Assembly (NCBI GenBank): GCA_948144175.1
Contig: CANXME010000562.1
Span: 26,887-90,886 of the forward strand
Length of the DNA: 64,000 nt
DNA from: Closterium sp. NIES-65
Taxonomy: Eukaryota > Streptophyta > Zygnematophyceae > Desmidiales > Closteriaceae
Reading direction: 5' to 3'
Numbering within the stretch: the first letter of the stretch is position 1; each line of letters starts with the position of its first letter. Shown piece by piece: positions 19,560 to 60,851 of this stretch. Under the pieces are notes generated by a model that was given only the letters and a program-made list of their open reading frames with translations, made no database searches and was not told where the DNA came from. Both the position numbers and the translations under genes were made by a program.

Positions 19560-20223
19560 GCATCAAATTACAATCCCTTAGCAGCCATTAGCTGTTTCGG
19601 ACGTTCAAGCATCTGGCCTCCCATTGCTACTTTCCCTGAGCATCTGAACCGCCTATAGCGCCACTGCACACTCCATGCGCCTTCCCACCTGTTGAGTTGA
19701 CTCCTGTGCATCTGCCTTTCCCTGTCAACCCGCCTTTCCCTCTCAACCTGCTTTTCCCTGTCAACCTGCTTTTCTCTGTCAACCTGCTTTTCTCTGTCAA
19801 CCTGCTTTTCTCTGTCAACCTGCTTTTCTCTGTCAACCTGCTTTTCTCTGTCAACCTGCTTTTCTCTGTCAACCTGCTTTTCTCTGTCAACCTGACTCTC
19901 CCCCAATGTTTACCTTTCCCTCTCAACCTGCCTTTCCCTCTGAGACTTTCTGTCCCTGCCAGTCTCCCTTTCCCTGTGTGTGTACCTTTCCCTCTCAACC
20001 TGCCTTTTCCTGTACCTCTACCTTTCCCTGTCAAACTGCCTTTCCCTGTGTGTATACCTTTCCCTGTCAACCTGCCTTTCCCCGTGCATCTGCACAGCCT
20101 CTAACGCCACTGCCCACTCCTCCATGCTCCTCCCTTTGCGTTGAGACTCACAAGACATTCTCTCTCGTCTGCCATTCCCCCCTGCGTCTGTGTATTCCTG
20201 TCAACCTGCCTTTCCCTCTCCAT
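19560..20223 (-). repeat. 3' flank of AUG5 with 18-bp minisatellite and last-exon copies
   Basis: About nine near-perfect 18 bp units (TTTCTCTGTCAACCTGCT) lie at 19745-19893, with degenerate units out to about 20080. Decayed copies of the last AUG5 exon (the GRSMEEWAVALEAAQM part) lie near 20085-20150 and 19640-19700. The open frames on both strands come from the 18 bp period. Confidence 0.7.
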
Positions 20224-22634
20224 CTACCTTTCCCTCTCCATCTGTGCAGCCTCTAGTGCCACTGCCCACTCCTCCATGCTCCTCCCCTCCACTGTCACCC
20301 ATGGGATGATCCCAAGGGCCGGCTGCTTCCACCAATGGGAGACCTGCAGTATCAGAATGAAGGGGAAGGGGGCACACGAAACATCTTCTAAGTTTGTCGA
20401 ACACACGGAATGATCCCAACGGCCGGCTGCTTCCACCGATGAGATACCCGCATGATCAGAACGACGGGAGTGAGGGTGCAGGGAAGTTTTTGTGTGTTCT
20501 GAGAGGCGAATCTCTCACCAGGTGAGAGGCGAATCACTCACCAGGTGAGAGGCGTCGTCGTGGGTGCGAGACACGAGCTGCCTTGACTTCCCCTGTAGCT
20601 GTGCCAGCTGCGGCAGCCACTCCGACAAGCTATCAGGTGTGTTTTAGACACAGCAAGCAGTTGAATGCACTCACCAGGAAGGTCAGACGCGTCGTGGGTG
20701 CGAGACACGAGCTGCCTTGATCTGCCCCTGCAGCTGTGCCAGCTGAAGCAACCATAATAACAGCCCTTCCCTTGCCACATGCTATAAGGTGAGTTCCAGG
20801 GACAGAGAGTAGTTGAATCACTCACCAGTTCAGAGGCGTCATGAGTGCATGAGACGAGTTGCCTTGACTGCCCCTTAAGCTGTGCCAGCCGTGGCAGCTG
20901 AGGCAGCTCCACGCACCACATTAAGCAGACGTATTGACCCATGGCAAGTAGATGAATGGACTCACCAGTTCAGAGGCGCTCTGAGTGCGCGAGACGAGCT
21001 GCCTTGCCTGCCCCTGCAGCTGTGCCAGCTGCGGAAGCCACTCCGATAACACCTCCATATGCTGCTGCTCCGCCTGCTGCTGCAGCCCAGCGAGTTGCCT
21101 GGATGGGGGATGAGGGGATGGGAAAAAGGCAGACAGGGAGAGAAAGGAGAGTGTGGGAAGCGAGGGGAAGTAGCCACTCGGATAGCACCTCCATATGCTG
21201 CTGCTCCGCCTGCTGCTGCAGCCCAGCGAGTTGCCTGGATGGGGGATGAGGGGATGGGAAAAAGGCAGAAAGGGAGAGAAAGGAGAGTGTGGGAAGCGAG
21301 GGGAAGCAGCCACTCGGATAGCACCTCCATGTGCTGCTGCTCCGCCTGCTGCTGCAGCCCAGCAAGTTGCCTGGATGGAGGGTCGGGGAATGGGAAAAAG
21401 GAGAAAAGAGAAAGAGAGCAGGGAGAGCGAGCAAGGTCAGGCAGCCACTCTGCTCGCACCTCCTGCTGCTGCTCTGCTCCACCTGCTGCTACAAGGTGAC
21501 TTTTGAGCCGACTCAAAAGTCACTTCGTCAGGCAGACACTCTGCTCGCACCTCCATGTGCTGCTGCTCCGCTCCACCTGCTGCTACAAGGTGACTTTTGA
21601 GCCGACTCAAAAGTCACTTCGTCAGGCAGACACTCTGCTCGCACCTCCATGTGCTGCTGCTCCGCTCCACCTGCTGCTACAAGGTGACTTTTGAGCCGAC
21701 TCAAAAGTCACTTCGTCAGGCAGACACTCTGCTCGCACCTCCATGTGCTGCTGCTCCGCTCCACCTGCTGCTACAAGGTGACTTTTGAGCCGACTCAAAA
21801 GTCACTTCGTCAGGGAGACACTCTGCTCGCACCTCCATGTGCTGCTGCTCCGCTCCACCTGCTGCTACAAGGTGACTTTTGAGCCGACTCAAAAGTCACT
21901 TCGTCAGGGAGACACTCTGCTCGCACCTCCATGTGCTGCTGCTCCGCTCCACCTGCTGCTACAAGCCACATGCATGCATCTGCATCCACCAATCACACCT
22001 TCCCACCGTTATGCACCACTCTGACATCCCACAGCCCCATGCACCAAACCAGCTTACCGTGCCATGCTGGCGACAGCTGGCTCCAGCTCTGCAGCGCTGC
22101 CAGCTGCCACGTCAGCAGCTGCTGACATGGCATCCACAAACTGAGCCACTGCCAGGAGATCAGTGCTCAAAGACACTGCTGACGTCACCCCCCTCCCTCC
22201 TCCTCCTCCTCCACCTCCCCCTCCCCCCTCAATCCCACTTCTTCTACCCTCCACTCTCACTCCTCCCACCTCATTTTCCCTCGTCCTCTCCCCCTCTTCC
22301 CCAGCCCTCCCCCTCCCCACACTCCCCCCCCCAGTGCAACCCCAAGCATGAGCAGCCAGCTCACTCCCTGTCCCACCGTCTATCCTGCCACCTGTCGCCG
22401 CATCATTGGCTTCCCAAGCTGCCCGAAGAACCTGGGCAGCCTCAGCAGCCAATGGAAGAATCGGGTCACTATCAGAAGAAGGTGTAGGTGCATTGGAGGA
22501 GGAACGGGAAGAGGAAGGGAGTGATGGGAGGGGGAGAGGGGAGGGGGAGAGAGCGAGAGAGTGAACGAGAGAGGAGAGAAGGGGCCAGAGTACAGTATCA
22601 GCAGCAGCTGTACCACCAACACCACCAACACCAG

Positions 22635-22698
<64 letters not shown>

Positions 22699-25600
22699 GG
22701 CAGAAGAAGCAGATGAGTGTTCCTGCCCCTGAAGCTGTTCCTGTCCATGTTCGTGTCCCAGCCCCTCGCCCTCCCCCTCAACAGCCGCCGATGGAAAGCT
22801 AAAGCTACTTCGTGCCTGTGCCTGTGCCTGTGCCTCCCTCTCAGAGGACAGTGATGGGTTTTGAGGCGTCTGAGACGTCTGAAGTATCTCACTACGCAAC
22901 GGAAAGCTACAGGAGACCGGGCGGCACAGCCAGGAGGGCGGCAGCGCCACGCCAGCTGTCACCTCGTGAGTGGCCAGATCCCATGCCGCTCGAACCGAGC
23001 CAATGAGAGCGCTTCCAGCCTTTGCCACGTGTCCTGCCAGGGCCTTTTGAGTCTGCCCATTTGTGAGGTTCCACCACATGTGTGCATAGGCCTGATGGGA
23101 ATTGAGGGGGGGGGGGGGGGGGGGGGGGGGGGGTGCCGAGAGATTAAGAGGGGTGGATGAGGGGGATTGGATAAGTCACTAGCTTCCAATGCTGTCTCCC
23201 CATTGGAGGGTTCCCCCACATGTGCGCATAGGCCTGATGGGGTGTGGGGTTGCAGAGGAAAGGGGGTGTCGAATGGGTATTCACAGAGTACGAAGGGTGA
23301 ATGGGGTGAGTCCTGTCAGGGCATTCTGAGTCGTCCCATTGGTGAGGTTCCACCACATGTGGGCATAGGCCTGTTAGGGAGGGGGAGTGTAGAAATCACG
23401 AGGCACAGATGCGTTTGGAGGGGTTTAGATACGTTGTGCGTGCACTCCTGATGCAGTCTCCCCATTGGTGAGGTTCCACCACATGTGGGCATAGGCCTGT
23501 TAGGGAGCACGGAGGAAGCGGGACGAATGGGTATTCACAGAGTACGAAGGGTGAATGGGGTGAGTCCTGTCAGGGCCTTTTGAGTCGTCCCATTGGTGAG
23601 GTTCCACCACATGTGGGCATATGCCTGATGGGAAGGGAGAGGGCGCGGAGAGAGAATTACAAAGTGGGCACCAGGGGGGCCACATAAGCCCCAGCTCTTC
23701 TGCTGCCTTCAAGTCGCCCTGTTGGTGAGGCTCCACCACTTGTGGGCATAGGCCTGAACGGAAGGGCGGCTGTGGGTGCAGAAAACGCGAGATACAGATG
23801 GGTTTGGAGGGGTTTAGATACGTTGTGTACTCCTGATGCCGCCTCCCCATCCACCACATCTGGGCTTAGGCTTGATTGGGGGTCGCTAAGGAAGAGGGAA
23901 GTGTGTGTGTTTGTTTGTTTCTCTCACTTGGTTCAACCAATAACGCCCAACAGCTAAGCAAACTCTGCAGCTTACCATTGGGAATTTAGCAGATTGCTTT
24001 TGTTTTGTTTTGATTTTTTTTCTATTACACCACTTTTCCCAAACCAAGTGACATGATGTGTCCAGACAGGAGCAAGGGACATAGACAGGGCATACCTGGT
24101 TTATCCTCCTTATAAGCTCGTACTCCGCCCACTTATTGCTGCGCTCGTCATTGAAACCCTTGATTCGCTCCCACTGCTGCAGCACTCTGCGATTCGTGGC
24201 TCCTGCTGCTGCCACCTCACTGCAATGGGGGATAATTACCGACAAAAGAAGTACAATGGGGCAAGATGGAAAGAGGTGATTGCATCATCCGCCGATAGAC
24301 TTGCTGCAGCAGCCGGGATGGAGCAGAGGCTGGACTGATGAGAATTCTCAGAAGCAGCCGGGATGGGACAGACAGAGGCAGGACTTGTCACTTGTACTAT
24401 GTCCCACCACCCGCCTTGACATGACAGTCGCCTTTCTGCTGCTTGAAGCACCCTCAGCTCTGCCTCTCCCACAGCTATCCCCAACCCCACAATTTCAAGC
24501 CACTCACCTCCGCACTCTCACTCACCCACTTTCACAATATGCACTCTATCACCTAGAAAGGCATATTTCCGCAGCTTGAAACACCTGCCGCTCTGCCTCT
24601 CCCACAGCTGTCCCCAACCCAAGCACGTCTATGTGCGTGTGCCCGTAATTTGCATGCGCTCTCACCTTGACAACCGTTTCTCCGTTGCCTGAAGCACTTG
24701 CAACTCTGCCTCTGCCACAGCTATCCCCAACTCCACATCCTCCAGCCTCTCACCTCCGCACTCCCGCCCACCTTCACATAGTATAGAATATGCCAATATC
24801 CCACCTTGATAGTCGCTTCTCCGCTGCTTGCAGCACCCTCAACTCTGCCTCCGCCATAGCTATCCCCAACTCCAACTCACCTATCCATGTGTACGTGATT
24901 TGCATGCGTGAGTGCGCTATCCCACCTTGATAGTCGTTTCTCCGCTGCTTGAAGCACCCTCAACTCTGCCTCCGCCATAGCTATCCCCAACTCCACATCC
25001 TCCTCACCACCCACTCCCTCCTCCCCTCCCTCCTCCTCTCCCTCCTCCCCTCCCTCCACCTCTCCCTCCTCGCCTCCCTCCTCCCCCCTCTTCCCTGCCC
25101 CGTCTCTGTCCCGTCTGTTAGATTGATCACTGGTCCTCCTTTCCACCTCCAGCCTCACTGCGTCAGCTCTCTTCCTCAGCACTTGCGTCTGCAGGCACAG
25201 GTCGCGATACTCCTTCTGCCAGAGGGGACGTAGAGGGAGTGAGAGAGAAAGGAGGGAGTGAGCGTGTTTGCTTCAGCAGCGGTCCTCCTTTCCACCTCCA
25301 GCCTCACTGCGTCAGCTCTCTTTCGGAGCACTTGCGTCTGCAGGCACAGGTCGCGATACTCCTTCTGGCAGAGGGGCCAAAGAGAGGGAGAAACGGAGGG
25401 ACAAGGGGGAAGAAACGTCTCTTACTCAGCACTTGCGTCTGCAGGCACAGGCCGCGGTACTCCTTCTGCCAGAGGGCAATGGAGAGAAAGAGCGAGGGAG
25501 AGGGAGAAACGGAAGGACAAGGGGGGAGAAACGATGGCCGCTGTGTTCCTTCTCAGCACCTGCGTCTGCAGGCAGGTCACCGTACTCCTTCTGGCAGAGG

Positions 25601-28600
25601 GACATCGAGAGAGGGAGTGAGGGAGGGAGCGAGGGAGGGAGTGAGAGAGGGATGGGAAGGGAGAAGGGAGCCTCGGCTGTCCTTTTCAGCACCTGCGTCT
25701 GCAGGCACAGGTCGCGATACTCCTGACAGAAGGAATCGGGGGGGGTGAGAGAGGGAGGGAGTGAGCCTACTTGCTTCAGCAGAGGTCCTCCTTTCCACAT
25801 CCAGCCTCACTGCCTCACTGCCTTCTTTTGGAGCACTTGAGTCTGCAGGCGCAGGTCGCGATACTCCTTCTGGCAGAGGGAGCATAGAGAGAGGGAGGGA
25901 GGGAGTGAGGGAGGGAGTGGGGGAGGAAGTGAGAGAGGGGTGGGGAGGGAGAAAGGGGGCCTCGGCTCTCCTTTTCAGCACCTGAGTCTGCAGGCACAGG
26001 TCGCGATACTCCTTCTGGCAGGCGGAAAAGGGAAGCCGCAGGATAGGAACGTAAGATAACGAAAGGGTGTCTGCATCACGGAAAGCAAGGGCACGAGTAG
26101 AGAAAGACTCTCCTCTGGCGGCTTCGGCTCTCCTTTTCAGCACCTGAGTCTGCAGGCACAGGTCGCGCTACTCCTTCTGCAAGAGGGAAAGGGGTTGTTG
26201 CAGAGTAGGAAGGTCAAAAATACTTTTGAGGCGCCTCAAAAGTCCCACTACTCCTTCTGCAAGAGGGAAAGGGGTTGTCGCAGAGTAGGAAGGTCAAAAA
26301 TACTTTTGAGGCGCCTCAAAAGTCCCACTACTCCTTCTGCAAGAGGGAAAGGGGTTGTCGCAGAGTAGGAAGGTAAAAAAAAGCGGAAGGACGTTTGTAA
26401 TGAAGGATGCAGATAACGAAAGGACGCTTCATCAGCATCTAGCCATCGACCAACACACTTGCCCTTCTCACCTGCCTCGCCAGCACCAGCTCCTGTGTTG
26501 ACTGCAGCGCCTGGTGCTGCTGACTCAGTGCAGTAGCAGTGAGATCTACTCACCCACACCCACCCATCGACCAACACACTTGCCCTTCTCACCTGCCTCG
26601 CCAGCACCAGCTCCTGTGTTGAGTGCGGTGCCGGTCGCTGCTGACTCGCCCCAGCCCTTGCTCCTCGCCCTGTGCTGCCACCAACCCCAGCAGCAGCAGC
26701 AGTGGCAGCAGCAGCAGCAGTGGCAGCAGCAGCACCACCACCATCTGCACCTGCCTCTCTTACCTGTCTCGCCAGCACCAGCTCTTGTGTAGACTGTGGC
26801 CCCTGGCGCTGCTGAATCGCCCCAGCCCTTGCTCCTCGCCCTGTGTAAACATCGAGAGGTAAACTTCCTTTTCACACTCTTACCTGTCTCGCCAGCACCA
26901 GCTCCTGTGTAGACTGTGGCCCCTGGCGCTGCTGACTCAGTGCAGTAGCAGTGAGATCTACTCACCCACACCCACCCATCGACCAACACACTTGCCCTTC
27001 TCACCTGCCTCGCCAGCACCAGCTCCTGTGTTGAGTGCGGTGCCGGTCGCTGCTGACTCGCCCCAGCCCTTGCTCCTCGCCCTGTGCTGCCACCAACCCC
27101 AGCAGCAGCAGCAGTGGCAGCAGCAGCACCACCACCATCTGCACCTGCCTCTCTTACCTGTCTCGCCAGCACCAGCTCTTGTGTAGACTGTGGCCCCTGG
27201 CGCTGCTGAATCGCCCCAGCCCTTGCTCCTCGCCCTGTGTAAACATCGAGAGGTAAACTTCCTTTTCACACTCTTACCTGTCTCGCCAGCACCAGCTCCT
27301 GTGTAGACTGTGGCCCCTGGCGCTGCTGACTCAGTGCAGTAGCAGTGAGATCTACTCACCCACACCCACCCATCGACCAACACACTTGCCCTTCTCACCT
27401 GTCTCGCCAGCAGCAGCTCCTGTGTAGACTGCGGCCCCTGGCGCAGCTGACTCAGAAAAGCACCTGCCTTGCCTTGCCATGCTCTCACGCTTACCTGTCT
27501 CGCCAGCACCAGCTCCTGTGTAGACTGCGGTCCCTGGCGCAGCTGACTCGCCCCAGCCCTTGCTCCTCGCCCTGTGCTCCCACCAGCCCCAGCAGCAGCA
27601 GCAGCAGTAGCAGCAGCAGCAGCACCACCGTCACCACCGTCAGCAGATGAGAATGATGCATGCTTTGCTGCCTTGCGCAAAAGGTGCTTTGACGTGCCAC
27701 CACCACTGCCGCTGCGGTTGTCACTGCCACCAGTCATCCCAGCCGTACTTCCCCTACTCGCACTGAGAGGCGCCTTGGTTGGAGTGGTCAGTCTGGTGAT
27801 AAGCAAGGAAAGGGAGGAGCAGAGAGGGGCTGAGGTGGCTAATCTGGTGATAAGCAAGGGAAGGGAGGAACAGAGAGGGGTTGGGGTGGTCAGTCTGGTG
27901 ATAAGCAAGGGAAGGGAGGAAGGTAGCGAGGCTGGGAACACGACACTGCCACCAGTCAGCCCTCCCGTTCCTCCCCCACTCGCACTGAGAGGCGCCTTGG
28001 TTGGGGTGGCCAGTCTGGTGATAAGCAAGGAAAGGGAGGAGCAGAGAGGGGTTGAGGTGGCCAGTCTGGTGATAAGCAAGGGAAGGGAGGAACAGAGAGG
28101 GGTTGAGGTGGCCAGTCTGGTGATAAGCAAGGGAAGGGAGGAGCAGAGAGGGGTTGAGGTGGCCAGTCTGGTGATAAGCAAGGGAAGGGAGGAGCAGAGA
28201 GGGGTTGGGGTGGCCAGTCTGGTGATAAGCAAGGGAAGGGAGGAGCAGAGAGGGGTTGAGGTGGCCAGTCTGGTGATAAGCAAGGGAAGGGAGGAACAGA
28301 GAGGGGTTGAGGTGGCCAGTCTGGTGATAAGCAAGGAAAGGGAGGAACAGAGAGGGGTTGAGGTGGCCAGTCTGGTGATAAGCAAGGGAAGGGAGGAGCA
28401 GAGAGGGGTTGAGGTGGCCAGTCTGGTGATAAGCAAGGGAAGGGAGGAACAGAGAGGGGTTGAGGTGGCCAGTCTGGTGATAAGCAAGGGAAGGGAGGAG
28501 CAGAGAGGGGTTGAGGTGGCAAGTCTGGTGATAAGCAAGGGAAGGGAGGAACAGAGAGGGGTTGAGGTGGCCAGTCTGGTGATAAGCAAGGGAAGGGAGG

Positions 28601-41669: not shown

Positions 41670-41672
41670 CTG

Positions 41673-47319: not shown

Positions 47320-50300
47320 TCACCTGCCTGCCCCTCTCCCTGCCTGCCTGTGCGTCTGCTGCACCACCCACTCCTCAAACGGTGTGCCCAGGTTCCACCA
47401 GCTGGCAGTGCGCTTGGAAGCATCCAGAACGCGCGGGCCCGGCGCATGGGCTTGTCCCAGGGCGCTGTGGCGAATTCCGTATGCGAGGTAAACGAGTGCT
47501 CCTATGGCGAGCCACGAGGAGGAGTAGAGCCACGTGGTGGCACTGGGAGGTGGGAAGAGACAGGGGAGTTGGGGAACGACAGGGGAAGGTGATTGAGAGG
47601 AAGGGGAGATGAAAGAGGGCCCGGCGTGTGGGCCTGCCCCAGAGCACTGTGGCGGATTCTATATGCGAGGTAAACGAGTGCTCCTATAGCGAGCCACGAG
47701 GAGGAGTAGAGCCACGTGGTCGCACTGGATGGTAGGGAGTGGGGGGGAAGGAGAGCGAGGGGCGGGAGGAAGGCGAGAGACGTAAGAGGGCCCAGCGCGG
47801 GGGCTTGCCCGACAGCACTGTGGCTAGTTTTGGGTCGACTCAATACCCGGTGTGTGGGCTTGCCCCAGAGCACTATGGGCTTGCCCGACAGCACTATCGC
47901 AAGGTGACTTTTGAATCGACTCAAAAGTCACCTAGGGCCAAGCCTGTGGGCTTGCTCGACAGCACTATCTGGTTTTTGAGAATTCTCAAAAACCCGGCGC
48001 GTGGGCTTGCCCGACAGCACTATCGCGAATTCCGTTGGCGAGGTAAACGACCGAGTGGCTTTACTCCGGTGTGACGAGGATGCTGGCGAGGAGAAGGGAA
48101 CCACACTCCCTCCCAGGGGCACTAGCACCGTGCTTGACTCTGCTTGACTCTGCTTGACTATGGTTGACTAGGGTTGACTCGTACCCACCCCATGTTCGCC
48201 ATGAGATACACGCTGACGAGGATGCTGGCGAGGGGAACACCCAAGGGCACTGGCACCCTGCAAGAAGGGCGTTGACCCTGGTTGACCTTTGTTGACTTTC
48301 TTGACTTTGCTTGGCTCAGCTTGCATAAGCTTGACTTTCTTTACTTGCCCCCTCACCCCAGATTTGCGTTACGGTATGCCAGGAAAAAGATCTGCTTATG
48401 AGTCGACTCAAAAGCTGAGTCGACTCAAATGCGATAAGGTATACCTTGACAAGGATATGCTGGCAAGGAGTGCAAAGCAACAAAGCTTCAACAGACGCCA
48501 AAGGGTGGTCGAAAGCTAGTCCTAGGAAACGTTAAGAGTCACATAGAGCCATAAACAATCATGGAGAAAAGAATCCCGGTGCACTTCTGTAGCACGTTCG
48601 GCTACGTGTACAAGTGGAAGAGAGAACCTTATCAACCCTTCAGTAGCATGTACGTGTACGTTCGAACCCGCTACTGAAGTGCGCTGGGATCCTTTGCTCC
48701 ATGCGCTGAATTTCAATGCCTCCATGCGACTCTTGAAGTTTTCGAGGACTAGCTTTCGATCACCCGTCAGCACCCATAAGCACCCTCTAGAACCCTGGGA
48801 GGAGGGCATGACTCTGGTTGACTCGTACTCACCCAGGATGGCCATGAGATACACGTTGACAACGATGCTGGCAAGGGGAAACCACAGCACTGGCACCCTA
48901 GGAGAAGGGTGTTGACTCTGCTTGACTCACTTTGACCTGCTCTCACTCACCCTAAATTGGCCATGAGGTAGACGTTGACCAGGATGCTGGCGAGGGGAAG
49001 CCACGGCACCCGGCATTGACTCTAATTGAAATGCTTGACTCTGTTGACCTGTGAGGCTTGTACTCACCCTAAATTGGCCATGAGATACACGTTGACCAGG
49101 ATGCTGGCAAGGGGAAGCCACGGCACCCAGGGACAGTGGAACCCTGAGAGAGGGCGTTGACTCTGGTTGACTCTGGTTGATCTGGTTGACTCGTACTCAC
49201 CCTAAATTGGCCATGAGATAGACGTTGACAAGGATGCTGGCAAGGGGAAGCCATGGCACCCAGGGACAGTGGAACCCTGGAGAGTGGTTTTTGTTCGAAC
49301 AGGGAGTAGGGGTGGGAAAAAGGGGGAGGTGGAGGAAGAGTGGGAAAGGTCTATTTAGACGTCTGGGAAAGTTAAGGATACAGGAGAGGGGAAGGCACGG
49401 CAACAACGGACACTAGAACCCTGAAAGGTTGATAGTGAGTCAAACTTTTGAGAATTCTCGGAAGTGACTCATGGAATCTTGGAAAATTAAAATTTGAATT
49501 CGAGTGTGTAATCCGCCTCACCTCCTGCTGATCCGAACTGGTGCCTTCCTTCGTCCTCATTGATACATCCAAACGTTGCTGCCCCCCCGAGGAACAGTGC
49601 ACCACCCAGAGAGAATAGTAGGAGAGGAAGCCAACTGGTGGGAGTGGGGACGGGAGAAGGAACAGAAGAAAGAAGAGAGAGGAGAGGATGGGGGACAGGA
49701 GAGAGGGTAGGTGACAGGGAGGAGGGTAGGGGACAGGGAGAGGGGGTGTGGTGGAGGAGACATGGGACAGTTGGCAAGGGAGAGAATTCAGCAGTAGTGG
49801 CAGCTGGCCTCTTGCGCCACTGTGCACAGGCGTTGCTATATTCATTAGAGAGATATGGATGTGTGTCTGCAGCATAACCTGTATTTCTTACCCTGACAAG
49901 CTGTGTAAAGAGGGGAAGCGTTACCACTCACTCTGAACTGGGACTGAACTGGGGAGGTCAGCAGAAGACGAAGCCACAGCAGCAGCATTGGCAGCAGAAG
50001 TGGCCACGGCAGCAGACGCTGGAAGGAGGAGAATCGTTACTCACTCTGAGAAGCTGTTTAGAAACGGGAAGCGTTGCAACTCACTCTGAAAGGTCAGCGG
50101 AAGACGAAGCCACAGCAGCAGCAGCGCCAAGCAGAGGGGCACCCAGGGAGACGGCAACGATGGCTCGAGAGGCCAGGCGTCTGTGCTGTGGGATGTGAGG
50201 CTGTGGAGAGGGGGGGGTGATTACTCACTTTGCTGTACTGGGGAGGTCAGCAGAATCCGCAGCAGCAGCAGCGGCCACCCCAAGGAGTGGGGCTCCCAGC

Positions 50301-53300
50301 GAGACAGCAACGATGGCTCGAGAGGCCAGGCGTCTGTGGGATGTGGGTGCAGTGGCGGCTGTAGCAGCTGTAGCGGCTGTAGCAGGACCTGTCACAGCAG
50401 GTGTGGCTGTAGCAGTGACTGTAGTAGGTGTGATAGCAGTGGGGTGAGCAGAATCCTGTTTCCTGACTCCTAGAGTGTTGCCCCCAGTGGCAATGTCAAC
50501 GGCAGCTTCATCACCCATTCCCCTCGGTACTGTGGCATTGTATTCGGTGGAAAGGTTTGCTGTATGGTGCTGCTTCTCCTCTTCTCGCTCTTCCCCTCCC
50601 ACCTCCTCCCCTTCCTCATCCCCTCCCTCTTCCTCACTCTCCTCCTCCTCCTCCCCTCTTCCGTCCTCCCTCTCCTCCTCATCCCCTCCCTCCTCCCCCT
50701 CCCCCTCTTCCGCCCTCTCTTCAAGCAATCGAGCCAGCAGTGGTGCTTGAAACGAGTTGGGCGTGAGGGAAAACACGGACTGCAGCTGGCCGTTGGATCG
50801 GATTTCAACGGCCGGAGATGTACCCAGGCTGTCCGGCGAGCCCATGTGCCTGAACACACTGGATTGGCCGACCGGGAGCGGGGAAGAGACAAAAAAACCC
50901 ACCCCTGCGGCGGCAGTTGGAAGGGAGGATGTTATATACTGGGGTCGAGTGGGGGGAGAGAAGGTATAGGCTGGTAGGGGGCGGGAGGAGGAGGATGTGG
51001 GGTGGTAAAGCTGGTTGTTGGAGGAAGAAGAGGAGGAGGGGAGTGAAGGGGGGTGTGAGGAGGGGAGAGGGGTGGGAGGAGAGGAGGGAGGGGTGTAGCG
51101 AAGGATGAGGACTGAGAGGCTGACAGTGGTGAATGCGAGAAGGGTGCCCACACTGACCTGGTGTGGGCATGGGGGAGGCAGACAGGGAGAGAGGAGGAAT
51201 GGAGGCGAAAGTGAGTGGAGGAGGATGGGAGAAAGAGTTTAGATCAAAGAAGGATGAGGAGTGAGAGGCTGACAGTTGTGAAGGCGAGGAGAGTGCCCAC
51301 ACTGACCTGGTGTGGGCATGGGTGGGGGGGAAAGGGGGATGGACAGGAGACGGTGATAATGAACGGTATTTGCAGTTGATGGGTATGTGCAGCGAAGGAT
51401 GCGGACACTGACGGTGGTGAAGGCGAGGAGAGTGCCGACACTGACCTAGTGTTAGCATGGGGGAGGAAGACAGGGAGAGAGGAGTGCGAGAGAAAGGGAG
51501 GAGATGGGCAGATGATCAATCACTGAAGGATGAGGGCTGAGAGGCTGACAGTGGTGAATGCGAGGAGGGTTGGTTGGAAGGAAGAAGAGGGTAAGAATAG
51601 ACAAGATGACTCTGAAAACCATGCCATGATTACGCCCCCCTCCTCACCATGGTCCCACTTAGCCCCCCTCCCGCCCCCTCTCCCACCACCCCCTTCCAAC
51701 CCACCATGCCTGACAGCTGCCCGATATCCAGCACAAACGCCATGGCGGCGGCCAATAGCCCATGCGAGCTATGCTGCCCATGCATGCTCCCCATGCTGTG
51801 CATGCTCCCCATGCTGTGCATGCTCCCCATGCTGTGCATGCTCCCTATGCTGCCCATGCATGCTCCCCATGCTGCCCATGCTCATGTGATGAGACGATTT
51901 TTGAGTCGGCTCAAAAATCGACCGCACCCTACCCATGCTCCCCATGCTCGTCACATGTAAACGCCGCACGGAAAATCCTGCTCCTGTTCCCCCCTTCCCC
52001 CCACGCACCATGCCTGACAGCTGCCCGATATCCAGCACGAACGCCATGGCGGCGGCCAATAGCCCGGTGACAGCTGTCGCGTTCTGAGGTACGCCCGTGG
52101 CCTTGTCGATGCGGCCAAACCAAGCTGGGAGGAGGCCGTCGCGAGCCATGACCATGAGTATGCGCGGCTGTGGGGGAGGGGGGAGAAGGGGGAAGGGGTG
52201 TGAGGAGGAGAGTGAGGCGCATCACAAATGGAACCAGGCAGGGAGGAGGCCGTCCCGCGCCATCACCATGAGGATGCGCGGCTGGGGAGGGGGGAGGGAG
52301 GGGAGTGTGTGGGTCATGTATGGGGAGTGTATATGGCGTGTGATGGAACCAGCAGGTGGAGATGCGACCAGCACCCGAAGCAGCAGGGACTCGAGCAATT
52401 ATCCATACCAGACAAATGGGAAAAGTGCTTAAATCTATCAGATGCAAATAGGGGCAGCAGGTGAGATGCGCATGCATGGCACCTACCACCTGTCGTGAGA
52501 TGCGCATGCATGGCACCTACCTGGGGCAGCAGGGATCCGAGGAGAGTGGTGGAGAGAGCTGCGAGCGCACCCCCTGTCACAAGGTACCTGCAATACAAGC
52601 ACATGTGCGGTACAGGCACATTTAAGCTACGAGAACATGTGAGGCGTCTCAAAGTTGGAGAGAGCTGCAAGCGCACCCCCTGTTACAAGGTACCTGTGAT
52701 ACAAGCACAAGTAACATACGAACACGTGTGCTGCAGTACATGCAGATATGTCATATGCTATACAATCACGTATCTCGCGATTTGCACAGTTTCATCTCAC
52801 ACATATGAGGTGCATCCACTCGATGACTCTCTCACTCTCTTACACATATGCACACTCTCTCACTCTCTTACACATATGCACACTCTCTCACTCTCTTACA
52901 CATATGCACACTCTCTCACTCACTCGCTTGACCCACTCTAGGTGGTACGTCTGGAACGCCTGAGATTTGAGGCAACACACTCTCTCACTCACTCCCTCAC
53001 TCACACTGTCAATTACTCTCTCACGTCACTCCCTCACTCACTCTGTCCATCACCCTCTCACGTCACACTTTGCCCAGTGATGAAGTTGTACCACTCCATG
53101 GTGTCCAGGGCAAAGTGCCCAGTCCAGGTGGTACGTCTCGAAGGCCTGAGCCATGGGCGTGTCAGGGTCAATGCGGTCAAACGGAGTCGACCCCACCAGC
53201 ATCACCACTCCCTCACACCCTCCCTCTCCCACTTACTTGGCCCAATCCAAATGGTAGGTGTCAAACGCCTGAGCCATGGGTGTGTCCGGGTCAATGCAGT

Positions 53301-56300
53301 CAAACGGAGTCAGCCCCACCAGCACCGCTGCTATCACCATGTAGAGAGCGCCACAGCAGGTAAGGGACAGGCCTATCCCCAAAGGCAGGTCGCGCTGAGG
53401 GTGCTTCACCTGCGTATAGGGAATCGGGGAAAGGGAATTGGGGAATAGACAAGCGTAAATATAGGCAGGTAGACCGTAGAGTGGCGATATCACCATGTAG
53501 AGAGCGCCACAGAGCGTCAGGGAAAGGCCTATGCCGAGAGGCAGGTCCCTCTGAGGATGCTTCACCTGTGTTTAGGGAATTGGGGAGGGGAGAGCTTTGG
53601 GAGGAAAGAAGAGGAGGGTTAGTGTGGGAAGGGAGAGTGCCGGTAGCTATGGTAGGACGAGTGTGGCCCTATCACCAGGTAGAGAGGGGAGAGAGAGCTG
53701 CAGCACGTCAGCAACAGGCCTATTCCTTGAGGCAGGTCACGTTGAGTGTGCTTCATCTGTATCAAGCACGATATTCAAAGAATCAAATGCTAGCAAGCTG
53801 ATTGAAGCCACACACGTACGTGAAATGGTGATAGTAGTGTTTTGAGACGTCTCAAAACACTCCTTCTTTCACGTGATAGTAGTGTTTTGAGACGTCTCAA
53901 AACACTCCTTCTTTCACGTGATAGTAGTGTTTTGAGACGTCTCAAAACACTCCTTCTTTCACGTGATAGTAGTGTTTTGAGACGTCTCAAAACACTCCTT
54001 CTTTCACGTGATAGTAGTGTTTTGAGACGTCTCAAAACACTCCTTCTTTCACGTGATAGTAGTGTTTTGAGACGTCTCAAAACACTCCTTCTTTCACGTG
54101 ATAGTAGTGTTTTGAGACGTCTCAAAACACTCCTTCTTTCACGTGATAGTAGTGTTTTGAGACGTCTCAAAACACTCCTTCTTTCACGTGATAGTAGTGT
54201 TTTGAGACGTCTCAAAACACTCCTTCTTTCACGTGATAGTAGTGTTTTGAGACGTCTCAAAACACTCCTTCTTTCACGTGATAGTAGTGTTTTGAGACGT
54301 CTCAAAACACTCCTTCTTTCACGTGATAGTAGTGTTTTGAGACGTCTCAAAACACTCCTTCTTTCACGTGATAGTAGTGTTTTGAGACGTCTCAAAACAC
54401 TCCTTCTTTCACGTGATAGTAGTGTTTTGAGACGTCTCAAAACACTCCTTCTTTCACGTGATAGTAGTGTTTTGAGACGTCTCAAAACACTCCTTCTTTC
54501 ACGTGATAGTAGTGTTTTGAGACGTCTCAAAACACTCCTTCTTTCACGTGATAGTAGTGTTTTGAGACGTCTCAAAACACTCCTTCTTTCACGTGATAGT
54601 AGTGTTTTGAGACGTCTCAAAACACTCCTTCTTTCACGTGATAGTAGTGTTTTGAGACGTCTCAAAACACTCCTTCTTTCACGTGATAGTAGTGTTTTGA
54701 GACGTCTCAAAACACTCCTTCTTTCACGTGATAGTAGTGTTTTGAGACGTCTCAAAACACTCCTTCTTTCACGTGATAGTAGTGTTTTGAGACGTCTCAA
54801 AACACTCCTTCTTTCACGTGATAGTAGTGTTTTGAGACGTCTCAAAACACTCCTTCTTTCACGTGATAGTAGTGTTTTGAGACGTCTCAAAACACTCCTT
54901 CTTTCACGTGATAGTAGTGTTTTGAGACGTCTCAAAACACTCCTTCTTTCACGTGATAGTAGCCTACATATAATCAGCTGTGCTTTCACGAATGTCGGAT
55001 GTGTCAGAACTAGAGCTTAGTATTCATGCACTAGTAATGAGCTCAAGGCTCTTTAAGTACATCGGAAATGGGCAAGGTAAGGATGGGGAGAGAATCGGGG
55101 GCAATCTTAGGGGATTGGGGGTAATCCCAAGGCAATCTCCAATTGGTGGGTTGGAGATTGCTTGGAGATCACATTTGGGTTTGGTTAGGATGTAAGTGTA
55201 GACCCAACCAAACACAATGTGCACACTACACTAAGATACTAAAGTGCAGGTACAAAATGTGAGATTGAGGGCTAACACTAACAGGATGATCCAGCGTAAG
55301 TCAAGAGATGTAAGAGAAAAATGCCATTGAGTTAACAGCTAGCATGCCATTAGTGCCCTCGAGTCACTTACCATGCCTCTTCTTCTGTGCTTGCAACAGT
55401 GTCAACTCAAATATAACGTGTGAAAAGAAGCAAGATCAAGTTCAATTCAGCATACATAGGCGAGTTCACTGTTCACTTAGCATACATAGGCGAGTTCACT
55501 GTTCACTTAGCATACATAGGCGAGTTCACTGTTCACTTAGCATACATAGGCGAGTTCACTGTTCACTTAGCATACATAGGCGAGTTCACTGTTCACTTAG
55601 CATACATAGGCGAGTTCACTGTTCACTTAGCATACATAGGCGAGTTCACTGTTCACTTAGCATACCTCTTCTGCTGTGCTGGCTACGGTGTCGAACCCAA
55701 TGTACGAGAAAAATGCCATTGCAGCTCCCCCCAGCAATCCCGACACTCCGAATGGTAGATAGCTGGAATAGAAAAGGCGAGATGGGGGAGAAGCAGGGGA
55801 AGGAGGGCAAAACGAAAGCAAAGAAGGTAATCCCAGCTAGCATTCCAGGCACACCGAACGGTACATAAACTGGGATTGAGAGCAAAGATGGAAATGTAAG
55901 TGATTACACACCTTCTCAGGGAAATGAACAGCAAAGAAAAGTAAGAATTTTGCCACACGAGGGCTTGGAAACTCAGAAAGGAATGGTAAGGGTCTGAGTT
56001 TGCTTTAAGAGTTTAAATGAAAGGAAACATAACAGGGTTTTGAGATGACTCAAAACATGGAGACAGATGGAGGGGAGGTGAGGGCACATAGGGTCTGCAT
56101 TCGAGTCAAAGGAAATGTAACAGGTTACCACCAACACAAAAAACCACAGCACAAGCACTCACAGCACAAGCACCCACAGCACAAGCACCCACATCAAAAG
56201 CACTCATCACAAGCACCCACATCCTCCCAAGATTACTGCATCATAATCACCCACCTTGGAGACTCCTTGTACCCCGGCCATCCGTAGGTAAACCCTATCC

Positions 56301-59300
56301 ATGCCCCTGCCACTGCCACAAACAGCAGTATTATCACATTTGCTATTGTCATACCCATCTGGAAATTGGCGCTCTGCAAGGGCAAGAGCGGAAACGGACG
56401 AGAGGGATAGTGAACAGAAGCAGAATAGAGGGACACTTGAGTGAAGCAGTACAATCACAGGGTTAAATATCCAACAAACAAAGTACCCACTGTCCCAAGA
56501 ATCGGAACTTGTTTCCTGTGCCGTCAAGCGAGGTTCAGGAAGGTGCTGAGCTGGCAGCCCGGCAGCCCGTCCCTGCTTCCAGGCTGCCAGCTCAGCACCT
56601 TCCTAAACCTCGCTTGACGGCGTAAGAGACACGTTCTTATTCTCAGGGTTGATTCCCTTGCCACCTTATCCTCATCTGGATATTGGCGCTCTGCAAGGCA
56701 AGAGCAGAAAGAGAGCGGAGGGATGTTGCAACGTAAGGAAGAAAAGAAAAGTGAAGAAAACAGACAGACACACGAACAGCACAATCACAATCGCTACTAT
56801 CTTCCTCCTCCTGCGTCTTCTCCCCCTCTTCTGCCCCGAGCTCAAGCACTCAGCCAACGTCTTTTCAATCCATTGCTAGAGCGGCGGTTTCTGAACGGCT
56901 CAAGTGCCTTGTGTTGTTGCACTGCTTAGGATTGGAGGAGGAGGAGTGGATCGGACTGCTTGCCGTCTGAGCTAAGTTGGAGGAGCTTAGGGTTCAACTG
57001 AATGACAAATTTTCAGATGAAGCGGTGGCGAGAAGCAGACTGGATGCGCTCACTAGATTCACAGTCAAACTAGTGAGCGCATCCAGTCTGCTTCTTGCCA
57101 CCGCTTCATCTCAAAAGTTGTCATTCCGTTGAACCCTAAGCTCCTCCAACTTAGCACAGACGGCAAGTAGTTCGATCCACTCCTCCACCTCCTCATCGAG
57201 AAATTGACACTTTGTTATGAAGAGAAACAAAAGAGAGGGAAGTTAAACAAAAGAGAGGATACTGAACAAAAGACGGTTAGAGCCCACGTAAAACATACTC
57301 ACAAACTCACACCCCAGGTGGCGCTCTGCCTCATATTCGTGAACGCAGCTACCTGATGCCGGCAGACAGCAGCGCAGTGACGAGAGCCACCATAAAGGCA
57401 GCACACGGAGGGATCCAACACTATAGTCAGTCAACGCACCTCTTTAATGCCGGCAGACAGCAGTACCGTCAAAGCAGCCACCATGATGGCAGCGCACGGA
57501 TCCAACACTATCATGGTGCCTGGGATGGGTAGGCGAGCCATCCTCCCACGTGTTGCCCTAAAACATACCTCTCAGACTCACGCCAATACAATCACACACC
57601 TCAGCAGTACCGTCTTCGCAGCCACCATGAATGCAGCACACGGATCCAACACTACAGTGGTGCCTGGGACTGGTCAGTCAACGCACCTCCTTTATGCCGG
57701 CAGACAGCAGTGCCGTCACCGCAGCCACCATGAGGGCAGCGCACGGATCCAACACTACAGTGGTGCCTGGGACTGGTCAGTCAACGCACCTCTTTAATGC
57801 CGGCAGACAGCAGTGCCGTCACCGCAGCCACCATGAGGGCAGCGCACGGATCCAACACTACAGTGGTGCCTGGGACAGGAAGGCGGGCAAGGATGAATGG
57901 CAAGCTGTCCGCCCCTCCCAACGCCGTTGCCTGAACAGGTGGTTGGGGGGCGTGGGGAAGTATGTGAGAGACGATAGAATGAATTAGGGAACGTATAGGC
58001 ATCTATGGAAAACAAGACAGGTAGGCGGGCCGGAGTTGAGTTGAGACAAGGCGTGCTCTCTGTCTGTTGGTCTGTCTGTTCGTTTTTACAAGGGTTAAGA
58101 AATGAGTCATGAAAGGACGCTACAAGATTGCATGCATGCATAGCTGAATGCACGAAACATCCCCAACACTTGCAAAATCGCCCCTGATTGTGCAGAATTA
58201 CCAGGTTCGGTGAAATGCCTCGAGCCACTGCTGCTCCACCCACGGTGTACTCGAGAATGAGCGCCCAGCCGATGAGCCATGCCACCCTGGTGACAGCAGC
58301 GAGGGGGGATAACAGAGAGACGCATTGAGAATTGCACAGATCGTGTGAATGAAGAATGCCTCGAGCCGAGCCACTGCTGCCCCACCCACGGTATACTCTA
58401 GAATGAGAGTCCAGCCGATCAGCCATGCCACCCTGATGGAGTCAGCAAGAGGGGACAACAGAGAGACGGTTGAAGTTGACTCACAAGTCAAAGATGCATT
58501 GACTGTGCAACACTCCTCGAGCCACTGCCACCCCACCAATGGAGTAATCAACTTCAATCACACTTCCCCCAACCCCACTCGCACTTCCCCCAACCCCACT
58601 CACACTTCCCCAACAGTCGTATATGCATAGTGGTAGGCACTCCCAGCGGACGGGCAGCGACTGGCAAATTCGGCAGCAGAAAGCAGCCAAGCCCGCCGCC
58701 ACGCCTGCTATGGTGGTGGAACCATCTACAACACTACCACACCCCCCAAGCACACTCACACTTCCCCGACGGTTGTGTAGGCGTAGTGATAATCTCTCCA
58801 GCGGACGGGCAGCAACTGGCAAGTTCGGCGCAGCAGAGAGCAGCCAAGCCCGCCGCCACGCCTGGTATGAGGAAGGAGAGTCATCTAGGCGCCTGCACTT
58901 ACACCTTTCCAGTCCCTGCTACCCAACCCACTCACACTTCGCCCACAGTTGCGTAAGCATAGTGATATGCACTGCCAGTGGACGGGCAGCGACTGGCGAG
59001 CTCAGCATAGCAGAGAGTAGCAAAACCCGCAGCCACAGTGATTCTACGTCCTCTCCCACACCCCTCAAGCACACTCACACTTCTCCAACTGTCGTGAAAG
59101 CGTAGTGGTAGGCACTCCCAGCAGAGGGACACTGGCTGGCGAGCTCAGCATAGCAGAGAGCAGCCAAGCTCGCAGCCACTCTTGCTATGACACTGAACCA
59201 GAGCGTGTTTTTTGAGAATTCTCAAAAAACACGTCTTGCTATGATACTCAACCATCTTCCACCTCCACACCCCCAAAAACACACTCACACTTCCCTCACG

Positions 59301-60851
59301 GTGGTGTATGAATAGTGGTAAGCACTGCCAGCAGAAGGGCAACGACTGGCGAGCTCAGCATAGCAGAGAGCAGCCAAGCCCGCCGCCACAGTGATTCTAC
59401 AGCTCTAACACACCCCCCAAGCACACTCACACTTCTCTGACTGTCGTGTAAGCGTAGTGATAAGCACTCCCAGCAGAGGGACACCGACTGGCGAGCTCAG
59501 CGTAGCAGAGAGCAGCCAAGCCCGCCGCCACGCCTGCTATGAGGAGGAAGGTGAATCGCCTGCATAACGGCCTGCACTACACCTTCCGCATTCCCCCATA
59601 CCACTCACACACACTCACACTTCCCCAACAGTCGTGTACGCGTAGTGATAGGCACTCCCAGCGGACGGGCAGCGACTGGCGAGCTCAGCGTAGCAGAGAG
59701 CAGCCAAGCCCGCCGCCACGCCTGCTATGAGGAAGGAGACGGGCAGCGCCGGTCCGGCCTTCTCCCGTGCCACTGTGCCAATGAGAACGTACACTCCCGC
59801 GCCTATGGTCGACCCCACTCCTGTTGTAGGTGCGGGAGAGAGGTGCAAGGGAGTGGTAAGTGTTGTAGGGGCAGAATCTGGAGCTGCCTGCTATGGGGAA
59901 GGAGAAGGGCAGCGCACACCCGGCCCTTCTCCCGTGCCACGGTGCGTTATGGTTGACCTCACCCCTGTGGTGGGTGGGTGGGATGGATGGGATGGGATGG
60001 GATGGGATGGGATGGGATGGGATGGGATGGGAGAGGATGGGACGGCAGGGGACGGGTTGGGGTGGGACGGGACGGGGCGGGACGGGATGGGATGGGATGG
60101 GATGGGATGGGATGGGATTGGATTAGACCAGATAGGATATGATTGGATGGGATAAAATAGGATAGGAGATGGGATCGGATCCGATGGTGTAGGATGGGAT
60201 GTGGTGTGATCAGGGTGTGACCCCGCCAGGCCGTTAGGCACGCGAGCACTCGTCTTAGAAAACGCCCGGATATCGGATCAGATCAAGCTCAGATCGTACC
60301 GAGTAGGGGAGTGGTTTGGAAGCGGAGACTTGCTCCTAGACTGGTTCAGACGGGATGGCTGGGGTCGGACGGGACGTAGTGGAAAGTAGCGCAAGCATGC
60401 TCGTTGTCTCAGCAGATCTCCGTTTGGAAATCCGGACCGTGACGGCCTGAAGCGCACCTAGTGGGATGGAGTCAAGCGTAATTACCGGGATGGAATAAGG
60501 CGTACCTAGCGGGATGAGCTGCCAGAACGTGAGGCACTTCGGAAGCGGCGCCGCCATGAGGTTCGTATGCGACTGAGAGTGCTTCAATCGGAACATCCCT
60601 CCCCACGAATTATGCCGGGTAAACCCCCCTCGCCTTGTAGTACCCGATCCTCCGCCATTCCCCGCTCCTCCGCGTTCCCCGCCGGATTCCTGAATCCTAC
60701 GGTAGCCGGAATCGTGGATCTGCGGTTGAGATCCCCATTGGGGGGATGGATGGTGCGGATACGCGCCACCAGCGCCAGTTCGATCTGACGGTTGAGAACT
60801 CCCGAGGGGAGTCCCACCGTGATGATCTAGAAAACCTCCACGGCGATCCAT
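47320..60851 (-). CDS. CAT: Cationic amino acid transporter (CAT), APC superfamily
   Basis: Membrane permease for basic amino acids; the membrane is not predictable here. Thirteen exons join in frame: 60851-60506, 59820-59619, 58286-58202, 57930-57790, 56373-56255, 55762-55666, 53409-53237, 52587-52521, 52167-52009, 51157-50229, 49892-49522, 49276-49201, 47542-47320, about 995 aa. Family blocks appear in order: [192 protein letters not shown], and the terminal [20 protein letters not shown] with [18 protein letters not shown]. Exon 10 adds a long Ser/Pro and Glu-rich loop (about 50560-50960). The N-terminus has about 95 extra residues. Introns are crowded with exon-edge copies, palindromes and foldbacks. 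Confidence 0.93.
47625..48060 (-). repeat. Copies of CAT exon 13 with two palindromes
   Basis: 47630-47735 is an almost complete copy of the exon 13 start ([18 protein letters not shown]). Shorter copies of its GCTTGCCCGACAGCACTAT side repeat to 48050. Palindromes at 47902-47933 (13-base arms, AGGTGACTTTTGA) and 47971-47994 (perfect 24 bp, GGTTTTTGAG arms around AATT) lie between these copies. Confidence 0.9.
48195..49150 (-). repeat. Copies of CAT exon 12
   Basis: At least four copies of the transmembrane block [18 protein letters not shown] with its donor lie near 48200-48260, 48830-48905, 48955-49015 and 49070-49150, each followed by TTGACTC-rich spacer. Confidence 0.9.
48573..48690. repeat. 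Foldback repeat in CAT intron 12
   Basis: 118 bp with inverted ends: ATCCCGGTGCACTTCTGTAG pairs with the complement of CTACTGAAGTGCGCTGGGAT (about 18 of 21 bases). The inner parts around ACGTGTAC also pair. No target duplication was found. Confidence 0.65.
49940..50175 (-). repeat. Copies of CAT exon 10 end / exon 11 start
   Basis: 50095-50170 repeats the Ala-rich end of exon 10 ([13 protein letters not shown]). Shorter copies near 49945-50060 carry AGTGAGTAA donors and the GCTTCCCGTTTCT acceptor side. Confidence 0.7.
51245..51580 (-). repeat. Copies of CAT exon 10 start
   Basis: Three copies of the acceptor and [15 protein letters not shown] near 51250-51315, 51400-51450 and 51530-51570. 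Confidence 0.85.
51700..51960 (-). repeat. Copy of CAT exon 9 end, CATGCT tandem and palindrome
   Basis: 51700-51775 repeats [20 protein letters not shown]. 51776-51885 is a tandem of CCCATGCTGTGCATGCTC units. A palindrome with 11-base arms (CGATTTTTGAG) spans 51895-51920. CATGCTCCCCATGCT flanks it on both sides. Confidence 0.85.
52455..52720 (-). repeat. Copies of CAT exon 8 edges
   Basis: The donor side is repeated near 52455-52500. The acceptor side (GAGAGCTGC to ACAAGGTACCTG) is repeated at 52652-52695. GTGAGGCGTCTCAAAG, a palindrome remnant, sits at 52637-52652 exactly between the two acceptor-side copies. Confidence 0.8.
52820..52925. repeat. 28-bp minisatellite in CAT intron 7
   Basis: Three to four units of CTCTCTTACACATATGCACA, then CTCTCACT. 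Confidence 0.8.
53440..53760 (-). repeat. Copies of CAT exon 7 start
   Basis: 53475-53570 repeats [20 protein letters not shown] with its acceptor. 53685-53755 is a more decayed copy. Partial copies of the exon 7 end ([13 protein letters not shown]) lie near 53120-53175. Confidence 0.88.
53826..54962. repeat. 45-bp satellite, about 25 perfect copies, each with a 26-bp palindrome
   Basis: Located in CAT intron 6. Each unit holds a perfect palindrome with 13-base arms AGTGTTTTGAGAC, followed by TCCTTCTTT and CACGTG within TTTCACGTGATAGT. I see no difference between units. The 45 bp period leaves about 390-codon open frames on both strands; these are artefacts. Confidence 0.97.
55450..55662 (-). 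repeat. 30-bp minisatellite next to the CAT exon 6 donor
   Basis: Seven units of GCATACATAGGCGAGTTCAC followed by TGTTCACTTA. CATAC at the start of the unit is the complement of the exon 6 donor GTATG, so the array begins at the splice site. Confidence 0.92.
56037..56056. repeat. Single dispersed palindrome
   Basis: GTTTTGAG, then ATGA, then CTCAAAAC, in CAT intron 5. Confidence 0.9.
56520..56621. repeat. Foldback with 40-bp arms in CAT intron 4
   Basis: Left arm 56520-56559 and right arm 56582-56621 are complementary at 39 of 40 positions, with a 22-base loop. The left arm starts GCCGTCAAGCGAGGTT. Confidence 0.92.
56935..57192. repeat. 120-bp inverted repeat of a Gag-like coding fragment
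   Basis: Arms 56935-57056 and 57070-57192, about 93% complementary by eye, loop 13 bases. Both arms read a related peptide ([20 protein letters not shown], then RSRLDALT) with one stop each. The pattern is similar to Copia Gag UBN2 domains, though not to the Gag of the element at 7983-15499. It lies in CAT intron 4. Confidence 0.85.
57345..57765 (-). repeat. Copies of CAT exon 4 end
   Basis: Four copies of [20 protein letters not shown] and the GTGCGTTGA donor region, near 57345-57430, 57450-57530, 57600-57675 and 57680-57770. Confidence 0.9.
58340..58560 (-). repeat. Copies of CAT exon 3
   Basis: 58345-58445 repeats nearly the whole exon ([20 protein letters not shown]). 58500-58550 is a shorter copy. 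Confidence 0.88.
58595..59560 (-). repeat. Six copies of the CAT exon 2 end
   Basis: Units of 150-180 bp carrying [20 protein letters not shown] and [11 protein letters not shown] plus the GTGAGTGT donor, near 58600-58715, 58765-58880, 58935-59040, 59085-59190, 59290-59395 and 59430-59545. Confidence 0.92.
59204..59233. repeat. 30-bp perfect palindrome
   Basis: Arms CGTGTTTTTTGAG around AATT. It lies between two copies of CTTGCTATGA-ACTGAACC within the CAT exon 2 copy array. Confidence 0.95.
59982..60120. repeat. GGGAT pentanucleotide tract in CAT intron 1
   Basis: About 130 bp of GGGAT and close variants (GGGAC, GGGGC). It is G-rich on the plus strand with quadruplex potential. Confidence 0.85.

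Follow-up and report, generated by a model that had tools for sequence, protein, structure and literature searches.

The lengthening of introns is usually explained through transposons. A stretch of 64,000 nucleotides from the streptophyte alga Closterium sp. NIES-65 (the window) raises the question of why the introns of four neighbouring genes hold so many copies of the ends of their own exons, splice sites included. The genes encode augmin subunit 5 (AUG5), a tRNA 2-thiouridylase (MNMA), a glutaredoxin-like protein (GRX) and a cationic amino acid transporter (CAT). The window corresponds to bases 26887-90886 of contig C562, in an assembly of 874,075,685 bases in 2,400 contigs, and parts of it are also present on contigs C2177, C1276 and C1840. 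The tandem copying of exon ends with their splice sites, previously proposed in a sequence-only reading, is confirmed here for these introns. It is probably best explained by frequent tandem duplication together with a filter that tolerates duplications spanning a junction.

Exon-edge copies within introns

Over the four genes 21 introns have been modelled: seven in MNMA, one in GRX and eight in CAT (32 exon edges), and the remainder in AUG5 (10 edges), giving 42 edges. The CAT 5' end, the CAT introns after 50229 and the N-terminal introns of AUG5 lie outside all counts. For each edge, 50 exon and 10 intron bases were aligned to the remainder of the edge's own intron. The null was obtained by aligning identical edges to other introns, yielding 480 scores for MNMA, GRX and CAT (median 10, 99th percentile 17, maximum 30) and 160 scores for AUG5 (maximum 17). 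This comparison rules out chance similarity as the source of the edge matches.

In MNMA, GRX and CAT, 26 of the 32 edges reach a score of 19 or more when aligned to the intron that they border, and 22 exceed the null maximum; both boundary types are affected (13/16 donor and 13/16 acceptor edges). Significant copies were also found by the edge test for 7/10 edges of AUG5. For the four genes together, 33/42 edges are significant and 20 of the 21 introns possess at least one such edge, in agreement with the earlier claim that copies adjoin the exon edges of most introns. The intron without a significant edge copy is CAT intron 2 (271 bp). At least one edge goes beyond the null maximum in 18/21 introns, MNMA intron 4 and CAT intron 4 reaching only 19 and 21, respectively. 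The pattern is systematic, as had been supposed, and does not consist of isolated duplications.

Under a stricter rule, a copy contiguous with the junction is present for 24/32 edges of MNMA, GRX and CAT; such copies unite exon, splice site and intron sequence, as do the boundary duplications known in amphioxus as mirages. Where a copy holds 20 exon bp or more, it ends no more than 3 bp from the junction in 55/57 cases, and the statement that the donor or acceptor is always included therefore holds nearly without exception. Among junction-crossing copies (array units counted apart), GT is intact in 28/31 donor copies and AG in 25/25 acceptor copies. The copy numbers, given earlier as one to more than 20 decayed copies in most introns, reach their highest window value, about 33, for the 16-bp unit at 37244-37768, and 72 in a sister segment.

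Full in-frame models can indeed be built from one copy of each edge. Complete open frames were obtained for MNMA (8 exons) and GRX (2 exons), and joining the nine exons of CAT and the six of AUG5 likewise keeps the frame; the frames are open provided that the first donor and the last acceptor of each intron are used. The identity of the products is indicated by Pfam: tRNA_Me_trans for MNMA (2.2e-71), AA_permease_2 for CAT (8.8e-45), GRXCR1-2_C (2.7e-15) with Glutaredoxin (1.9e-5) for GRX, and HAUS5 for AUG5 (9.2e-14, scored on an assembled piece).

Composition of the introns

In the 21 introns 12,483 of 20,497 bases (61%) are redundant with an earlier segment or exon, and 6,557 bases, about a third of the intron sequence, are directly exon-derived. 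Once the redundancy is stripped, the total falls from 20,497 to 8,014 bp and the median intron from 851 to 316 bp.

Local repeats include 29/42 junctions and cover 71% of the intron interiors when weighted by bases, or 59% as a mean over introns, with a bootstrap interval of -0.01 to 0.21 for the difference between junction and interior. Junction coverage is thus not above that of the interiors, and the exon edge as a duplication hot spot is unsupported. No such hot spot is needed: the similar coverage fits duplications arising anywhere and surviving where one intact exon remains. Repeat coverage drops with depth into the exon, from 30/42 at 20 bp to 1/42 at 140 bp, and duplications confined to an exon are missing, since the protein would not withstand them.

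Within MNMA exon 8, at 41003-41186, there is an in-frame duplication of about 96 bp, owing to which an 18-residue string is present twice. Duplications within an exon can accordingly persist if the frame is kept.

Recent change between sister segments

The alignment of contig C2177 to the window extends from 19 to 64 kb. Its well-aligned blocks (38,592 bp) contain 117 mismatches (0.30%), and 26 length differences of at least 8 bp were counted. The largest difference, +5,183 bp, consists of 71 extra copies of the 73-bp unit at the MNMA exon 6 donor. The C2177 array thereby amounts to 72 units, a mixture of perfect and variant ones, whereas one perfect and the same four decayed copies are found in C562 and C1840. 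The acceptor units of MNMA exon 7 number 6.6 in C2177 and 2.6 in the window. Length variation between sister copies, a further feature of mirages, is thus present at both edges. A difference of 72 units against one at 0.30% divergence indicates that the copying process is still active.

Despite these changes, C2177 contains a single full-length match to each of the 19 modelled exons of MNMA, GRX and CAT, with open frames and with GT and AG present at the internal splice sites; the single-copy models are thus open in two segments. The coding gap positions between C2177 and the window amount to 21 bp in MNMA, 15 bp in GRX and 3 bp in CAT. Decayed copies (94, 93 and 91%) lie at matching places in C562, C1840 and C2177. 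Misassembly is an unlikely source of the pattern, because the same decayed copies occur in the sister contigs.

Two length differences concern other sequence. In MNMA intron 6, at window positions 38549-38592, C2177 carries an insertion of about 2,950 bp (+2,954 bp) that is not derived from an exon edge. A 45-bp palindromic intronic array of 25 units is located at 53828-54962, where C2177 is shorter by 1,125 bp (25 units).

What the copies record

Exons and their copies have been compared for 52 copies, at about 1,420 sites for each codon position. The substitutions number 114, 92 and 304 at the first, second and third positions, respectively, and 41/52 copies differ by more than 5% from their own exon. 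The changes private to the exon are distributed as 0/0/6. Between copies, the third-position difference is 0.34, compared with 0.16 and 0.15 at the first and second positions. The raw ratio of nonsynonymous to synonymous differences per site (pN/pS) is 0.23 in copies without indels and 0.41 in copies with indels. Single copies themselves decay near-neutrally: singletons of the copies other than the oldest are distributed as 19/14/25 over the codon positions (22 synonymous, 35 nonsynonymous), and 41 of the 45 exon-derived indels are not multiples of three.

Mutation bias was rejected as the full cause of the third-position excess, since context rates taken from positions 1 and 2 predict 0.072 and 0.21 is observed. 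The notion that the copies are working exons, suggested by the third-position bias, is weakened by the frame-breaking indels and the near-neutral singletons. These data are best accommodated if the exon evolved under selection through successive copyings and each copy then decayed near-neutrally. Given this decay, and with the exon's own synonymous evolution present in the differences, the copies look like dated fossils.

Occurrence elsewhere in the genome

A whole-genome profile search was carried out for four unrelated protein families, and repeated profile segments at neighbouring places were counted. Rows of plastid type and those of contigs C165 and C841 were set aside, and sister copies of one gene were counted apart. 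Repeated exon segments were found at 22 of 51 assembled loci: 6/22 for Cpn60/TCP1, 7/13 for class I tRNA synthetases, and, for nuclear-type RNA polymerase, 6/7 loci of the second subunit and 3/9 of the largest. At 19 of the 22 loci at least one listed pair has a common profile start or end, as edge duplication predicts. The fraction 22/51 is a lower bound, because in a profile search of MNMA (E up to 0.001) its many copies all went undetected. The pattern described earlier for four neighbouring genes is therefore present there, but is not peculiar to them.

Outside this count, repeated segments were seen by eye in HSP70 genes on C2039/C957, C501/C1682 and C554/C1781; none were seen by eye in seven cytosolic-type HSP70 loci with one long match. 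A gene search by codon usage at 15 random loci returned mostly low-complexity and transposon frames; at two of these loci (L019 and L028) acceptor-like array units were noticed by eye, likewise outside the counts. Near-identical, full-length plastid-type RNA polymerase beta genes are numerous (C97, C265, C411, C525, C824, C1848, C1961, C2141, C2174 and others); the contigs that carry them are plastid contigs or inserts in the assembly.

Origin of the copies

The favoured explanation, frequent duplication with a tolerant filter, would operate as follows. Tandem duplication of short segments would be frequent in these genes; where edge arrays are clearest, the unit length runs from 16 to about 170 bp. 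A duplication within an exon would usually break the protein and be lost. A duplication over a donor or acceptor would leave one complete edge on the exon body and place the spare in the intron; where the first donor is joined to the last acceptor, the spare would be absent from the mRNA and survive. Splicing of this kind, probably achieved in the cell through exon definition, is suggested by the reading frames. Over repeated rounds the intron would lengthen at its edges, and every copy would preserve the exon as it stood at the time of copying before decaying itself. Some units would later amplify into minisatellite arrays; we infer that the neutral filter is the cause and that the amplification comes from slippage or unequal exchange.

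Several observations weigh against this explanation. Even among the singletons synonymous changes are slightly in excess (ratio 22 to 35; expected 0.37 to 1), and the third-position excess, 3:1 between exon and copy and about 2:1 between copies, lies at or above 2:1, the maximum that a constrained exon and its independent neutral copies can give. This surplus may arise because shared changes were counted more than once; some copies may also have been coding in the past, or diverged alleles may have exchanged sequence. In decayed copies GT and AG are retained in 23/26 and 15/15 cases, somewhat better than other dinucleotides (means of 0.745 and 0.79), array units here being non-independent. Of 20 spacer and transposon stretches of the window, chosen by hand, 19 are without local repeats, though equally free to accept duplications. 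Finally, 20/21 repeat families touch a junction (adjoining repeats merged), which the neutral model can explain only if the introns began short. The spacer contrast is tempered by the retrotransposon region, which has arrays of its own at 10.9-11.2, 13.2-13.5 and 14.3-15.1 kb, and repeat coverage at the 15 random loci ranges from 0.05 to 1.0, satellite-like arrays included.

The repeat-free stretches and the junction-touching families are among the points that would be expected if mutation were directed at spliced introns or their junctions, for example by breaks or re-replication connected with co-transcriptional splicing or R-loops, so that duplications arose where introns are and not only where they can be borne. 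Sixteen introns are 63% covered by local repeats, which are absent from 19 of the 20 chosen stretches, 20/21 families touch a junction, and there are arrays whose unit holds a donor (such as 16 bp x33 and 73 bp x72). Such targeting is nonetheless unlikely: junctions are covered no more than intron interiors, purely intronic arrays vary between sister segments too (the 45-bp unit at 53828-54962), and many gene-independent repeats occur in the retrotransposon region and the random loci. The third-position excess, at or above its neutral limit, makes the favoured explanation slightly weaker and strengthens slightly the view that the copies are, or were, used as alternative or recursive splice sites or as alternative exons and kept by selection. 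The largely intact GT and AG of the junction-crossing copies, the dominance of third positions between exon and copy as well as between copies, and the low pN/pS of indel-free copies speak for it. As 41 of the 45 indels break the frame, the singletons of non-oldest copies are near neutral, the bias is weaker in indel-bearing copies, and sister segments range from 1 to 72 copies while the frame is kept, selection for use is less probable still. False duplication in a repetitive long-read assembly, to which the strong length difference between C562 and C2177 might be ascribed, is highly improbable in view of the divergence of 41/52 copies from their exons, the matching decayed copies on three contigs, the mixed units of the 72-unit array and the same pattern in other gene families.

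A wider form of the favoured explanation may be put forward tentatively, and is itself rather doubtful. Introns built largely from the edges of their own exons, by genome-wide duplication in spliced regions, would be time-stamped archives of earlier exon sequence. In constitutive introns the spliceosome would have to pass over as many as dozens of perfect decoy donors and acceptors, a few of them perhaps retained for recursive or alternative splicing.

Relation to known systems

The closest case among the literature matches listed is the amphioxus mirage, a minisatellite-like duplication of exon-intron boundaries in Adh3 and the globins BflGb6 and BflGb9, with somatic instability reported for Adh3 (PMC3087553). 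Mirages concern single introns of few genes in an animal, whereas in this streptophyte alga 20/21 modelled introns of four genes are affected and repeated exon segments occur in unrelated families, with arrays of up to 72 units and a record of exon change in the copies. In potato, a new intron of an RNA-dependent RNA polymerase (RdRp) gene arose from tandem duplication over an intron-exon boundary (PMC4974935). That case shares with Closterium the boundary-crossing duplication that re-uses existing splice signals; it differs in that potato gained an intron, while in Closterium existing introns are lengthened and no new position was seen. Human segmental duplications contain variable internal tandem repeats at any position, in about 7% of the primate-specific genes there (PMC2812944). 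Their repeat number varies between recent paralogs, partly at exon-intron boundaries, but they are confined to duplicated regions, in contrast to the involvement of most modelled edges of ordinary genes here.

For Closterium NIES-65, more than half of the ortholog groups are duplicated and haploid cells were sampled, according to the accessible text of a copy-number study of the Closterium psl complex (PMC10407611). The presence of many segments more than once agrees with the window; the part available deals with whole-gene duplication and treats introns as mean length and number. Among the literature matches listed, none describes exon-edge arrays in zygnematophytes, and the potato intron gain is the sole plant case. 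Compared with the accessible accounts from amphioxus, potato and human, the new elements are the lineage, the density, the unrelated families, the fact that sister segments differ by very recent expansion, and the history of the exon preserved in its copies.

Because the copies retain earlier states of the exon, a single genome could suffice to date the growth of its introns. The human IFI6 gene contains a minisatellite with multiple donors. The present arrays, in which 33 or 72 donors follow one another and eight near-identical acceptors precede the correct one, are natural tests of splice-site choice. In such genomes annotation pipelines and exon-based copy-number counts can be misled.

Features of the MNMA gene

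MNMA (32973..41669, plus strand, as are all its features) consists of exons 32973-33722, 34323-34455, 36251-36393, 36905-36988, 37170-37253, 38322-38473, 39809-39971 and 40788-41669; besides the open frame and Pfam, the model is supported by one full match of every exon in C2177. The exon 1 donor edge and two copies occupy 33628..34128 (self-comparison 85-88%, edge score 38). One copy of the exon 2 acceptor lies upstream of the real edge (34143..34389, 90% repeat, edge score 54), and the exon 2 donor edge (34416-34457) is followed by one decayed copy (34522-34563; together 34416..34563, self-comparison, edge score 34). The exon 3 acceptor edge forms an array of a 121-bp unit x7.6 (35397-36313), with an older copy at 35265 (35265..36313); Tandem Repeats Finder (TRF) gives 97%, and AG is intact in 8/8 copies.

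The donor edge of exon 4 is repeated 3.1 times as a 17-bp unit, CTCACCAAG/GTACGCTC (36978..37031, TRF 100%; the slash marks the junction). That of exon 5 is repeated 32.8 times as a 16-bp unit, CCTGGGGAAG/GTACGG (37244..37768, TRF 97%), followed by an older, longer copy at 37776-37848 (self-comparison). Acceptor-edge copies of exon 6 have a period of 167 bp, the last being the real edge (37968..38395, TRF 94%, edge score 56), and the exon 6 donor edge and its copies, where C2177 has the 72 copies of the 73-bp unit, extend over 38388..39146 (self-comparison and sister-segment comparison). At exon 7, a 121-bp unit x2.6 forms the acceptor array (39555..39868, 6.6 copies in C2177; TRF and sister-segment comparison), and the donor edge with its copies spans 39864..40473, where, within the stretch of C2177 covered, a 157-bp unit reaches 5.5 copies (self-comparison and sister-segment comparison). 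The exon 8 acceptor edge has one copy upstream (40660..40830, edge score 34 and sequence).

Features of GRX, CAT, AUG5 and the LHCB introns

GRX (42669..46261, plus strand) has exons 42669-44807 and 45809-46261, supported by the open frame and Pfam. Its exon 1 donor edge with two copies (44682..45098) and the copies of its exon 2 acceptor edge, which end with the real one (45195..45863), were identified on the same strand by self-comparison and the junction-copy check.

The nine modelled exons of CAT (50229..59890, minus strand; open frame and Pfam) are 59890-59619, whose 5' limit is only that of the open frame, 58286-58202, 57930-57790, 56373-56255, 55762-55666, 53409-53237, 52587-52521, 52167-52009 and 51157-50229. 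On the same strand, the exon 1 donor edge is accompanied by six copies (58575..59739; self-comparison, junction-copy check), and copies adjoin the exon 3 donor edge (57333..57888; TRF, self-comparison, junction-copy check) and the exon 9 acceptor edge (51020..51570; self-comparison, edge test). What may be an entire CAT exon, acceptor and donor included, was identified by eye and is repeated at 48806..49284 (minus strand, self-comparison), outside the edge counts.

The C-terminal part of AUG5 (20244..27780, minus strand; open frame and Pfam) has introns 27494-25216, 24925-24220, 24095-23092, 22057-21099 and 20965-20344. Its acceptor-edge copies, also on the minus strand, carry the exon starts GCCTATGC (23031..23911) and AAGGAGTATCGC (25123..26397), both found by self-comparison and the edge test. 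The donor-edge copies with the exon end GCGAGACAG/GTAAG lie on the same strand at 26429..27549 (TRF, self-comparison, edge test).

Two LHCB introns served as controls, one of 201 bp (7468..7668, plus strand) and one of 156 bp (18114..18269, minus strand). Both are without edge copies (edge scores 9 and 8 in each), so their description as clean stands; the intended contrast with the four genes is too small to weigh, CAT intron 2 being equally clean. In the structure library the LHCB protein matches plant-type light-harvesting chains, the best-scoring being a fused LHCI chain. No Rfam match was obtained at gathering thresholds. Long minus-strand retrotransposon-like frames, of Copia type by eye, are situated at 8336-14321.

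Palindromes of the form TTTTGAGNNNNCTCAAAA (at most 1 mismatch) have 45 matches between 21501 and 63308, against 0 expected from shuffling. They occur at 12 separate places, 11 of them inside the AUG5, MNMA and CAT spans, and several lie within array units, such as the 45 bp x25 array at 53828-54962. They possibly represent a small mobile palindromic element.

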